Positions 19,225 through 24,479 of a DNA stretch of 24,479 nucleotides are shown here, in pieces. Source of the DNA: a virus. A model generated the notes under the pieces. The model made no database searches. It was not told the origin of the DNA and saw only the letters and a list, made by a program, of their open reading frames with translations. Where the stretch lies: IMG/VR virus record IMGVR_UViG_3300042470_001405, positions 1-24,479 of that record, one strand, 5' to 3'. The translations under genes were made by a program, and so were the position numbers. Within the stretch, counting starts at the first letter, position 1; each line of letters opens with the position of its first letter.

Positions 19225-21198
19225 TTATCTGAGACTTGGGCTTTTAATTGATGCTCCATTCTCATAACCACTGATTACTTTACCAACTAAGTCTCCCGTT
19301 CCCCAAGTTTCTAGAGAAGCACATTTAGCTATTTCAGCAGCACCTATATCATTTATTAAACCGTTTACGATACAATTATATCTCCCATTGGTTAGGGTTC
19401 TTAGTGTTGCGTACATACCATCATCTAATGTCTGATAATTTTGGACCCCCGCAGAGTTAAAATCGGTTGAGTTTTCGAGTTTGTGAGTTGTATTGAATGG
19501 ATTAAAATTACCTGCCTTACCCTCAGCTTGTCTCCAAGCCAATAAAAACTTCATATTTTCATTTGTTACAGGTGCACCTAGTTTGGTAAGTAAAGTTTGA
19601 TAAAAATCTTGGTCATTTTTTGACTCTAATCCGAAATCCCTATCATATTGAAGACCTCTCAAATCAGAATCAGTAAAACCTTTCTGTATCAACATAGCCA
19701 AAAGGTATTTGGAATCTTCTACTCCAAAAATTCCTGTTTGTGGTAACCCAACACTTGATTGAAAATCTTTAACAGCTCCTTGGGTTTCAGGTCCGAATTT
19801 ACCATCAACACCATATCTTGGTAAAGAAAACCCCAAAAATTGTAAACCTGATTGTATCACTTCTACGGGTTGTTCATATGGTATCTTTTGTCCTGGAGTA
19901 TATTCAAAATACAAACCGTCCTTCACGTAGGACATAATCTTTTTCAAGAAAACAGAATCTGATAAAGTATTCCAAACCATCTGTTGGTCTTTATTAGATT
20001 GTTTTTTTTGTTTTGATTTAGGGGTAACTTCAATTTCCCCTTTGGCACATTTTAGAGTACCATCGTCATTCAAAAATTCTCTTATATTGTGTCCATACTC
20101 AACTCCAATGTGCAGGTGGTCATAGGAACTTCCAGGAAAATCCATCACATATCCTAACAATTGTCCACATTTTACTTTGGAACCCTTTTGTACTTGAGCA
20201 TTCTGTAGATGAGTATAATATACATCGGGTAATGAATTATCACTCTTCACAGTGAATCCTATACCAAAAAGTTTTTTCCCTTGAGTTTTCCTTACCTTAG
20301 GTCCGTAGTCTTTGAAGGTTTTAACAGTTCCATCCGCAATTGCATAAACCGGTTCTCCGATAGGTGCTTTAATATCCCAAGCGTTACCACTAGCCCATCC
20401 ACTTTGACCCGCATGAGCACCATCTGCGGGTATTTTAACACTTGCGGAACCAAATAATCTATCACTTTGTTCAGTGATTTTTGATTCGATTGAAAGTTTT
20501 TTATCTTTAGCCTTTGTTATTGCCTCAAAAAGTTTTCCAATCATTTCCGACCTTCTCAAAAATTTGAAAACTAAATTTTCATAGGAAAACTCTCCTTCTT
20601 TTTCTAATCCCGATTTACGATATTTTTTTATTTTTTCTTTGAGAGATTTCATCTTATCGATATCCTCGGTTTCTATTGTATCATCAATTTTTGAAATCCA
20701 AGATTTCACTTTCTTTTTTAAAAAATCAAAATCTATTTCCGCATTTTCCTTGACTGGTTTTTGAATCCATTCATCATTCATTATGGAATAAACAGCACTG
20801 CTGGAATGTTCATCATCCGCACCTTGTGCATAAACCTCAACATCGTAACCATAAATGGTGATATCATATTTATTATTAAACTCTTTCTTTTTTAACTCGA
20901 AAATTTCTCTATACAATTCCTCATCTTCACCATATTTTCCGAAATCAACAAGCAAGTGTAAATCGAAGTCCGAAAATTCTGACCAGTTGTAATTTGCTAA
21001 AGAACCCATCAAGACAATATCTTCGATAAAGACATCGTCCCCTAAATCATCAGAAAATTCCTCAGCAATCTCAAGTAATTTTTTTCTTACTTCAGATTTT
21101 AGAGTTGCCTTATCAATATCCTCGTAGTTATCCCAAACCTTGGGATTCAAATTTTCTTGCAAAGAAAAACTATCTAAAATTTTTTGAAACTTCTTCAT
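19225..21198 (-). CDS. Four-domain protein: nucleotidyltransferase + M23 peptidase + PG-binding + muramidase-like
   Basis: 657 residues. Residues 60-125 hold a Pol-beta-type nucleotidyltransferase signature: MGSLANYNWSEFSDFD (Gly65-Ser66, Asp77, Asp79) and a third acid in YDVEVY (Glu121). Residues 250-372 form an M23 (LytM-like) metallopeptidase: AHAGQSGWASGNAWDI (His262, Asp275), APIGEPVYAIADGTV, YYTH (His330) and SYDHLHIGVEY (His361, His363). Residues 443-497 fit a PG_binding_1 domain (GVDGKFGPETQGAVKDFQ). Residues 548-645 resemble a phage muramidase fold, with WRQAEGKAGNFNPFNTT (candidate Glu559) and VQNYQTLDDGMYATLRTL. The last three parts degrade peptidoglycan at entry or exit; the start domain is unexpected. 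There is no signal peptide or transmembrane segment, so it is either virion-associated or needs a holin. The ATG follows a TATTTAT element by five bases. Confidence 0.88.
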   Translation of the reverse strand: MKKFQKILDSFSLQENLNPKVWDNYEDIDKATLKSEVRKKLLEIAEEFSDDLGDDVFIEDIVLMGSLANYNWSEFSDFDLHLLVDFGKYGEDEELYREIFELKKKEFNNKYDITIYGYDVEVYAQGADDEHSSSAVYSIMNDEWIQKPVKENAEIDFDFLKKKVKSWISKIDDTIETEDIDKMKSLKEKIKKYRKSGLEKEGEFSYENLVFKFLRRSEMIGKLFEAITKAKDKKLSIESKITEQSDRLFGSASVKIPADGAHAGQSGWASGNAWDIKAPIGEPVYAIADGTVKTFKDYGPKVRKTQGKKLFGIGFTVKSDNSLPDVYYTHLQNAQVQKGSKVKCGQLLGYVMDFPGSSYDHLHIGVEYGHNIREFLNDDGTLKCAKGEIEVTPKSKQKKQSNKDQQMVWNTLSDSVFLKKIMSYVKDGLYFEYTPGQKIPYEQPVEVIQSGLQFLGFSLPRYGVDGKFGPETQGAVKDFQSSVGLPQTGIFGVEDSKYLLAMLIQKGFTDSDLRGLQYDRDFGLESKNDQDFYQTLLTKLGAPVTNENMKFLLAWRQAEGKAGNFNPFNTTHKLENSTDFNSAGVQNYQTLDDGMYATLRTLTNGRYNCIVNGLINDIGAAEIAKCASLETWGTGDLVGKVISGYENGASIKSPSLR

Positions 21199-21500: not shown

Positions 21501-22052
21501 ATGAATGTAAATGAATCTTTCAAATATTATGGACATTATGACATATCGAATATTCTGACGATATTAAATAGTGAAAAAGTAGATTGGAACGAATTTACCT
21601 TGAGACAAAAAGCGTGTACTGATATGGTCAATACACAAACAATTAAAATAGTTTATGACAATGATTTTTTTTCTACCAACTTTAATCCAGTGTTTACTAA
21701 AAACTATACCTTCTTCGAAGAGGATTTAAATAATATTTGTGAAATTATAAAAAAACAAACCGGCGGTTCAGGTTATTTACTCAGAGCTATTTTAGTCAAA
21801 CTATACAAAAAAAGTATTATACCAACCCACGTTGACAGTGCAAACAATACTTTTAAATTTTCTAAAAGGATACACATACCAATAATTACAAATGAAAAAT
21901 GTATTTTCAATGTAGGTGAAGAATCCATCAATATGAAAGTCGGTGAAATTTGGGAAATGAATAATGATAAATTATCACATTCTGTGGTGAATGATGGTGA
22001 TGAAGATAGAGTTCATCTTATAATAGATTGGTGTGAAAAAACCCCCAACTAA
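21501..22052 (+). CDS. 2-oxoglutarate/Fe(II) oxygenase, Asp/Asn beta-hydroxylase-like
   Basis: 183 residues. The C-terminal half carries the double-stranded beta-helix signature: PTHVDSANN with His110-x-Asp112, SKRIHIPIITNEKCIFNVG, GEIWEMNNDKLSHSVVN with His160, and DEDRVHLIIDW with Arg170 for 2-oxoglutarate. This fits the aspartyl/asparaginyl hydroxylase family (PF05118), which includes many phage members. The substrate is unknown; a protein side chain or a modified metabolite is possible. The N-terminal 90 residues are unassigned. The stop codon lies in the loop of a terminator hairpin shared with convergent hsp20, so the gene forms its own unit. Confidence 0.85.
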   Translation: MNVNESFKYYGHYDISNILTILNSEKVDWNEFTLRQKACTDMVNTQTIKIVYDNDFFSTNFNPVFTKNYTFFEEDLNNICEIIKKQTGGSGYLLRAILVKLYKKSIIPTHVDSANNTFKFSKRIHIPIITNEKCIFNVGEESINMKVGEIWEMNNDKLSHSVVNDGDEDRVHLIIDWCEKTPN

Positions 22053-22068: not shown

Positions 22069-22464
22069 TCACAGGAGATTGATTCTCTTTTTTTCTTGTT
22101 TTTTGTAATTAGGTACGAATACCGTTAGTAGACCATCTTCTATTGTTGCCTCAATCTCAGATGAATTATATTCCTTTCCAATTTTGAATTCTTTTGATAC
22201 AGATTTTGTTTTTTCTTCACCATTCAATTTATAAATTCTTTTTCCTTGAATGATTAGAATTCCGTCTTCCATTTCTACTTTGAGATTTGATTTATTAAAA
22301 CCAGGAACCTCAAAGAAAAGATATGCACCATCTTTTGTTTGATTTATTTCATAATTCTCCTCATCAGGATTTTTTGAAATTACTGAGGTTTTGAAATAAG
22401 GTTTGGACGTCCCATTGAAAATGTCGTCGAAAATTCTGTTCAATTCGTTGTTAGATAAAATCAT
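22069..22464 (-). CDS. hsp20: Small heat-shock protein Hsp20
   Basis: 131 residues, the usual small-Hsp length. The alpha-crystallin domain spans about 40-119: AYLFFEVPGFNKSNLKVEME (47-66), GILIIQGKR, and the diagnostic ATIEDGLLTVFVP (106-118). The C-terminal tail ends KKRINLL, which supplies an I-x-L anchor for oligomer assembly. Small Hsps hold unfolding proteins without ATP until chaperone machines act on them. Hsp20 is a common gene of T4-like cyanophages; here it is encoded divergently from a ClpC-type ATPase, 165 bases away, suggesting a joint protein-quality function. Its upstream region has a T4-like TATAAATA on the coding strand. Confidence 0.93.
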   Translation of the reverse strand: MILSNNELNRIFDDIFNGTSKPYFKTSVISKNPDEENYEINQTKDGAYLFFEVPGFNKSNLKVEMEDGILIIQGKRIYKLNGEEKTKSVSKEFKIGKEYNSSEIEATIEDGLLTVFVPNYKKQEKKRINLL

Positions 22465-22532: not shown

Positions 22533-22570
22533 ATGACAGATTGTCATGAAAAAAAAATTTATTATGACAA
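22533..22570. promoter_or_regulatory. Overlapping inverted repeats, operator candidate
   Basis: ATGACA-GAT-TGTCAT (22533-22547) is a perfect 6-bp-arm palindrome. Its right arm also pairs with a third copy at 22564-22570: TTGTCAT and ATGACAA, 16 bases between. Three half-sites of the same sequence lie between divergent hsp20 and the Clp gene, a typical place for a dimeric repressor or activator to control both. Confidence 0.5.
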
Positions 22571-22629: not shown

Positions 22630-24479
22630 ATGAATGAACTAATGGATGATGACGACATGAAAACAAGTAGGAAGCAAAAGACTTCCGACAGTTCTACTCC
22701 TGTTTTGGACAACTTCAGTAGAGATTTAAATAAACTTGCGTCCGAAGGTAAATTAGACCCTGTAATTGGTAGAGACCGAGAAATTTTGAGGATTGCACAA
22801 ATCCTATCAAGACGCAAGAAAAACAATCCAATTATCTTAGGAGAACCGGGATGTGGTAAAACCGCAATTGTAGAGGGTTTAGCAATGAAAATTGTAAGCG
22901 GTGAATGTCCCAAAAATCTTATTGATAAAAGAATTGTAAACTTAGACCTGACCTCTGTTGTGGCGGGAACAAAATATAGAGGACAATTTGAAGAGAGGAT
23001 GAAAGTTATTATTGAAGAATTACAGACAAACCCAAACATTATAGTTTTTATTGACGAGGTGCACACTTTGGTTGGTTCGGGTAATTCTGCCGGTTCTATG
23101 GATGGTTCCAATATTTTCAAACCCGCTTTATCACGTGGTGAGATTCAAATTATTGGGGCCACAACTTTAGATGAGTTCAGAAAAAACATTGAAAAGGATG
23201 GTGCTCTTGAAAGACGATTCCAAAAAATTATTGTTGAGGCTTCATCTGTTGCTGAAACTATAGAAATTCTGAAGAACATTCGTCCCAAATATGAATCTTA
23301 TCACAAGGTCAGGTACTCTGATGAGGTCATTGAGGTTTGTGTCAAACTTGCTGAACGTTATATTACAGACCGAGAATTTCCTGACAAAGCATTTGACATT
23401 TTAGATGAGGTTGGTGCACGTATGCAAACAGAAGTGAAAATTCCCGAGGTTATTGAGGAACTCAAAAAAAAGGCTGCGGAAATCAAACAACAAAAAATCG
23501 ATGTTGTAAAAAAACAGAATTACGAACAAGCGGCGCAATTACGAGATAGAGAAAAAAAGTTGTTGGATAAATTAGATTCGGAGAAAAAGAAATTTGATGA
23601 GGAAATGGAGAAACAAAAACAAGAAATCACGTTGAACATGGTTTATGATGTTGTTTCAAATATGACCAAAATTCCTGTAAACAAAATGAGTGTTGATGAT
23701 ACAAAATCTCTGATAAACTTGGATAAGGAGCTAACAGGTAAGGTTATTGGACAAGATTCGGCCGTAATCAAAGTGGTTAAATCAATTAAAAGAAACCGCT
23801 TGGGTATCAAAGACCCCAACAGGCCAATCGGTTCATTTATTTTTCTCGGTTCTACTGGCGTCGGTAAAACACACTTGGCAAAACAACTTGCGAAAGAGAT
23901 GTTTGGTTCAGAAGAAGCTCTTATCAGAGTTGACATGAGTGAATACCAAGAAAAACACACTGTATCCAAATTAGTAGGTGCCCCTCCTGGTTATGTCGGA
24001 TACGATGAAGGGGGACAACTAACTGAAAAGGTTAAAAACAAACCTTACTCAGTTATCCTTTTCGACGAGGTAGAAAAAGCACATAAAGACGTTTTCACAA
24101 TCTTGTTACAAATTCTTGATGAAGGACACGTGACAGATTCTCTCGGTAGAAAAATCAATTTTAAAAATACTTTGATTATTTTGACAACAAACTTAGGAGT
24201 CAAAAAATTACAAGATTTCGGTACAGGGATTGGTTTCTCTAATTCCTATTCAAATGAGGAAGCCAGAAAACAGGTTCTCATGAAAGAAATGAAAAATTTC
24301 TTTTCTCCTGAGTTCTTGAATAGGATTGATGATACGATTGTTTTCAATTCTTTATCAAAAGACGATATTAAAAAAATCACGGAGATTGAATTGAAAAAAC
24401 TTTCTAACAGGCTTTCTGAATTAAAATATACTGTCACATACGATGATAGTCTTATTGAATACCTTTCAAAAATAGGATA
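22630..24479 (+). CDS. clpC: ClpC-type AAA+ unfoldase without N-domain, 3'-truncated
   Basis: 616 complete codons are visible and the frame is open at the right edge. After about 25 charged residues the first AAA+ module starts directly, without the double Clp-N repeat. D1: Walker A GEPGCGKT (71-78), pore loop GTKYRGQFEER (113-123), Walker B VFIDE (139-143), arginine finger region ALERRF (192-197). The middle region includes NYEQAAQLRDREKKLL (297-312), a UVR-like motif as in ClpC; the long ClpB coiled coil is absent. D2: GSTGVGKT (407-414), pore loop GYVGYDEGG (454-462), ILFDE (476-480), FLNRID (563-568). GTGIGFS (531-537) sits where ClpC has its ClpP-docking (V/L/I)GF loop. It would unfold substrates for host ClpP. 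The start is the first ATG in frame after a host-type promoter candidate. Confidence 0.95.
   Translation, partial: MNELMDDDDMKTSRKQKTSDSSTPVLDNFSRDLNKLASEGKLDPVIGRDREILRIAQILSRRKKNNPIILGEPGCGKTAIVEGLAMKIVSGECPKNLIDKRIVNLDLTSVVAGTKYRGQFEERMKVIIEELQTNPNIIVFIDEVHTLVGSGNSAGSMDGSNIFKPALSRGEIQIIGATTLDEFRKNIEKDGALERRFQKIIVEASSVAETIEILKNIRPKYESYHKVRYSDEVIEVCVKLAERYITDREFPDKAFDILDEVGARMQTEVKIPEVIEELKKKAAEIKQQKIDVVKKQNYEQAAQLRDREKKLLDKLDSEKKKFDEEMEKQKQEITLNMVYDVVSNMTKIPVNKMSVDDTKSLINLDKELTGKVIGQDSAVIKVVKSIKRNRLGIKDPNRPIGSFIFLGSTGVGKTHLAKQLAKEMFGSEEALIRVDMSEYQEKHTVSKLVGAPPGYVGYDEGGQLTEKVKNKPYSVILFDEVEKAHKDVFTILLQILDEGHVTDSLGRKINFKNTLIILTTNLGVKKLQDFGTGIGFSNSYSNEEARKQVLMKEMKNFFSPEFLNRIDDTIVFNSLSKDDIKKITEIELKKLSNRLSELKYTVTYDDSLIEYLSKIG

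Follow-up and report, generated by a model that had tools for sequence, protein, structure and literature searches.

Bacterial ClpC proteins, such as those of Staphylococcus aureus (6em8), Bacillus subtilis (3j3t) and the Bacteroidota, carry an N-domain followed by a first AAA+ module (D1), a UVR-containing middle domain and a second AAA+ module (D2), with pore loops and a (V/I)GF loop that docks ClpP. ClpL has no canonical Clp N-domain and a coiled-coil middle domain with a conserved aromatic residue, and head-to-head rings have been reported for it; it is not known to have the ClpP-docking loop. The key residues of the S. aureus ClpC middle domain are F436 and R443 (PMC5699869). In an engineered S. 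aureus delta-N-ClpC, the resting state is destabilised and ClpP is bound unaided, yet the rings stack head to head via F436 and do not degrade; breaking the F436 contact in addition yields an active and toxic protease (PMC12583610). Among viruses, ClpP, ClpS and ClpA are already known from jumbo phages, although the part of that account available to us describes no ClpC devoid of an N-domain, no UVR/Hsp20 gene slot and no pairing of ClpC with ClpP (PMC7824862). A literature phrase search for phage-encoded ClpC or ClpP returned no match. Sequence records of huge phages (LR756502, LR745206, LR756508 and LR756504) do contain a ClpC lacking the N-domain, with the (I/V)GF loop present and a ClpP in the same record. 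Staphylococcus phage SpP (PP468606.1, our locus L192), which is cultured, encodes a full-length ClpC with its N-domain, annotated as hypothetical, and its record has two ClpP-family matches.

Here we describe a clpC-like gene without an N-domain at the end of a DNA stretch of 24,479 nucleotides from a virus of aquatic bacteria (IMG/VR record IMGVR_UViG_3300042470_001405), hereafter called the window. The surrounding genes are T4-like (Gp23 capsid protein, T4 portal, S77 prohead protease and T4-type terminase), and the source is probably a large T4-like phage infecting Bacteroidota. ORF analysis and Pfam place the gene at positions 22630 to 24477 (+ strand), with an in-frame stop four codons ahead of its ATG; the 616-residue frame is open at its 3′ end, where the contig cuts it. 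A 6.1-kb viral contig, L001, encodes a 100% identical ClpC and supplies the 3′ end missing from the window, which completes the protein to 669 amino acids, of which 616 codons lie inside the window. Set against S. aureus ClpC, the protein matches residues 144 to 800 with no large gap (E = 9e-221), a likeness in sequence far beyond chance; since the alignment starts at residue 144, what is missing is precisely the N-domain. Its best PDB matches are ClpC, and its nearest matches in cellular genomes are Bacteroidota ClpC rather than ClpB, ClpA or ClpE. In the phylogeny against host ClpC that the preliminary description had called for, the phage proteins group in a single clade (SH-aLRT 100), which sits next to Bacteroidota ClpC on a long branch. 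The huge-phage proteins, 42–57% identical over the aligned region, fall outside this family, the divergent ones being unsurely placed.

Pfam recognised two AAA modules with their lid domains and no Clp_N. The D1 module (residues 26–270; 22705..23439, + strand; AAA plus AAA_lid_9) carries Walker A GEPGCGKT (71–78), pore loop KYRG (115–118), Walker B FIDE (140–143) and arginine finger ERR (194–196), and its key positions are kept in 79 of 79 relatives. The middle domain has its UVR motif at residues 279–311 (23464..23562, +), with a score of 20.7 bits, just below the Pfam cut-off of 21.5. The D2 large domain (residues 398–568; 23821..24333, +; AAA_2) contains a Walker A motif (407–414) and pore loop GYVG (454–457), and is followed by the D2 small domain (24352..24477, +), which the contig end interrupts at position 41 of the 81-position ClpB_D2-small profile. 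L001 holds the small domain in full, together with sensor-2 motif YGARP (residues 621–625), which lies past the end of the window. The earlier claim of two complete AAA+ modules thus holds for D1 but is not quite right for D2 as found in the window; the UVR-like middle region, the missing Clp-N domain and an IGF tripeptide at residues 534–536 in the docking-loop position were all correctly recognised. Walker, pore-loop and arginine-finger residues are invariant or nearly so over the 79 relatives. In the register of the S. aureus alignment, Y298 occupies the position of F436 and R305 that of R443; R305 is conserved in 79/79 relatives and Y298 in 76/79, the remaining three having F. We gave no special meaning to the change from F to Y, as Y is also found in host Bacteroidota ClpC (67/80). 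The IGF tripeptide (24229..24237, +) was assigned as a predicted ClpP-docking loop from the alignment of the relatives, in which (I/V/L)GF is present in 78 of the 78 proteins with data at the loop, and, judged by sequence, the loop is genuine.

The whole N-domain, which in S. aureus spans about 140 residues and in Bacteroidota about 180, has given way in the phage protein to a short charged tail of ~25 residues. All relatives with 5′ sequence start at the same place and have no N-domain, and their reading frame closes shortly before the start codon, within 1 to 33 codons in nearly all of them. The domain was likewise absent in 77/77 scored members of a second set of relatives, whereas 80 of the 80 nearest cellular ClpCs, all from Bacteroidota, possess it. 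The absence is a genuine and old trait of the family. A separately encoded N-domain in relatives, which the preliminary description had named as evidence against its reading, was not detected: no match to PF02861 occurred in 36 records, in a search that recovered the domain in 9 of 14 control genomes and may therefore miss some cases. No gene for the ClpS adaptor was found in 21 records. Apart from this one, the sequence features by which we judged ClpC are present, and we regard the protein as an N-less variant that would work in a ClpC-ClpP-like manner but fails one defining feature of ClpC. Its domain content equals that of the engineered delta-N-ClpC, and it keeps the middle-domain aromatic; it differs from the engineered protein in being natural, in having a ClpP of its own within the clade and in its possible UVR or Hsp20 partner. 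From ClpL it differs in having kept the ClpP loop and in a sequence that resembles ClpC.

A clpP gene is present in 17 of 36 records of relatives, on the same strand as clpC and 14–32 kb downstream, so that the two genes are not adjacent. The Ser, His and Asp positions are all conserved in these proteins, which over the aligned part share 37–40% identity with E. coli ClpP, taken as a yardstick. In the clade of the window and the sister group nearest to it, clpP occurs in 17 of the 17 records eligible for the count, those with about 30 kb or more downstream of clpC. The window itself, which ends inside clpC before any clpP could appear, has none, and the best 80 contigs of a ClpP scan of viral contigs include none from the sample of L001. 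In the remaining sister clade, ClpP is present in 0 of 26 records, 18 of them with at least 30 kb downstream and one 322 kb long; these 26 comprise five records whose downstream sequence is 34.8 kb or longer and a further 21, of which 13 have at least 30.9 kb. The docking loop reads IGF in all 44 rows from groups that carry ClpP and is mostly VGF (26/33 rows) in the ClpP-less clade, and a second sample of relatives around the latter contained 56 VGF, 18 IGF and 1 LGF. This I/V difference is conservative and, being at the level of clades, counts as few evolutionary events. Bacteroidota host ClpC itself uses GVGF (66) or GIGF (14; n = 80), and the IGF loop would therefore probably also fit host ClpP, so that mixed complexes are possible.

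Upstream of clpC, the divergent slot is occupied by an Hsp20 gene in the window (22069..22464, − strand; Pfam). Across loci this slot holds Hsp20 in 21 (including the window, its own copy L081, and L001) and a double-UVR protein in 41; the two never occur together in 80 loci. The same exclusivity holds in 36 whole records (double-UVR in 21, Hsp20 in 8, both in none), and the ClpC tree requires no fewer than six switches between the neighbour states. A DnaK-like gene fills the slot beside clpC in a single relative from the ClpP-less clade (L074, 2970–4829, −). The UVR region of the double-UVR protein is best matched by the model of McsA, the UVR-containing partner of McsB (E = 2.8e-12). Unlike McsA, the phage protein has two UVR motifs and nothing matching the rest; scoring 46.8 bits against a cut-off of 210 for the full model, it was rejected as an McsA member. 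A host origin was also rejected because 12 Bacteroidota genomes contained no full-length relative; their matches were UVR-sized and lay in ORFs of about 200 amino acids or in ClpC-sized ORFs.

The divergent promoter contains a 13-bp palindrome, TGACA-N3-TGTCA (22534..22546, unstranded), recognised from motif counts across loci. Allowing one mismatch, 59 of the 61 loci whose neighbour is UVR or Hsp20 have it, as do 2 of the 18 that lack such a neighbour; shuffled sequences lead one to expect it in 1.5 loci, and the spacer is exactly three nucleotides in 108 of 113 sites. At the same tolerance, it also precedes 6 of 17 host hsp20 genes (none in shuffles) and 8 of 16 host groES genes (0.12 expected), with no enrichment before host clpC. 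A palindrome common to host hsp20 and groES promoters suggests that the phage genes may be controlled like a host stress regulon. The exchange of Hsp20 and double-UVR genes in one slot and the promoter palindrome are new.

Several other genes accompany clpC. In 75 of 80 loci, clpC is closely followed downstream by a gene for an M20-like peptidase (L001, 3530–4360, −), usually on the opposite strand; it is assigned to a PHROG 'peptidase', mostly keeps its HTDT, GGDDK and SEE motifs and matches Pfam M20 weakly, below cut-off. Restricted to part of clade A, the window's clade, a zincin-like gene with HExxH in 24 of 30 members sits between clpC and this peptidase gene, directly downstream of clpC (L001, 2879–3535, +). 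Near clpC in the window is an aspartyl/asparaginyl beta-hydroxylase-like gene (21501–22052, +), whose cluster is shared by a handful of related loci. Another window gene (19225–21198, −) fuses an M23 peptidase and peptidoglycan-binding domains behind an N-terminal part that weakly resembles a nucleotidyltransferase and that also occurs alone in relatives. A defence-system library compared with the locus gave only partial matches of AAA regions to PADLOC models.

We consider it reasonably probable that the product of this clpC is the unfoldase in a ClpC-ClpP protease carried by the phage and gated by the middle domain, with the phage's own ClpP as partner. The peptidase would be the one encoded about 14–32 kb downstream in the same clade, as judged from the relatives. 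Together with the biochemistry of delta-N-ClpC, the retention of Y298 and R305, at the positions that hold ClpC rings head to head, leads us to predict an enzyme that is ready for ClpP and gated by its middle domain: with no N-domain, there would be no N-domain-locked resting state and ClpP could dock unaided, while middle-domain gating would remain. The pore loops would thread substrates with no need of host adaptors that act on the N-domain. As loader of substrates or activator of the middle domain, the Hsp20 found here or the double-UVR protein of relatives is the best candidate; in the window phage, whose slot holds Hsp20, loading would fall to Hsp20. Because chloroplast ClpC1 traps UVR-domain proteins (PMC8889267) and the UVR region resembles that of McsA, the UVR neighbour is a natural candidate to act on the UVR middle domain. 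A bolder form of this proposal, which we hold as tentative and rather doubtful, is that control of ClpC has been rebuilt around the middle domain, with the N-domain route deleted, the phage double-UVR protein breaking head-to-head rings and delivering substrates, and Hsp20 swapping in as loader at the same operator-bearing slot.

The preliminary description had instead proposed that the phage enzyme could seize host ClpP, turning it away from the substrates that adaptors choose. As a reading of this gene, we hold it unlikely. The loop is kept in every relative with data, and the sister clade, in which only host ClpP would be available, retains it mostly as VGF, the commonest host form; on the other side stand the ClpP genes found in all eligible records of the window's clade and nearest sister group, where the loop is IGF in every row. 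The proposal is therefore not the preferred one for the window's phage, and the search for clpP elsewhere in the phage that accompanied it, fruitless in the window, succeeded in those relatives. Only in the ClpP-less sister clade is use of host ClpP the likeliest case, and it fits there because the loop is kept although ClpP is lacking. We found no sign that defence proteins or regulators are the specific targets.

Two further readings concern the task of the phage enzyme. The protein could be a ClpL-like chaperone or disaggregase for which proteolysis is secondary, Hsp20 holding and the N-less Hsp100 refolding proteins during the burst of capsid synthesis. The adjacent, divergent Hsp20 gene and the heat-shock-like palindrome common to host hsp20 and groES promoters point that way, as does ClpL, whose middle domain is likewise a coiled coil and whose rings pair head to head (PMC12583610); we nevertheless find this improbable, given a ClpP-docking tripeptide of invariant type, a clade that encodes ClpP and a neighbour that is mostly double-UVR rather than Hsp20. 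Bulk recycling, in which ClpC-ClpP and the neighbouring M20-type peptidase degrade host proteins to amino acids for virions, seems very improbable: the frequent proximity of that peptidase with its largely kept HTDT and GGDDK motifs, and of the zincin-like gene between it and clpC, is consistent with such a role, but amounts to co-localisation of a gene that matches M20 below cut-off and usually lies on the opposite strand.

Since close relatives also carry ClpP, the virus most likely comes with a protein shredder of its own instead of borrowing the host's. The family represents a natural and widespread ClpC without the N-domain, which is now seen as the main site of ClpC control and drug targeting, and the phage ClpC has dropped this domain while keeping the predicted ClpP-docking loop and the putative middle-domain lock. 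Phages with their own ClpP or none, and with an Hsp20 or a double-UVR partner, offer ready comparisons, by which one can directly test if an adaptor can be received by the middle domain alone, and whether phages bring a degradation machine or borrow one.
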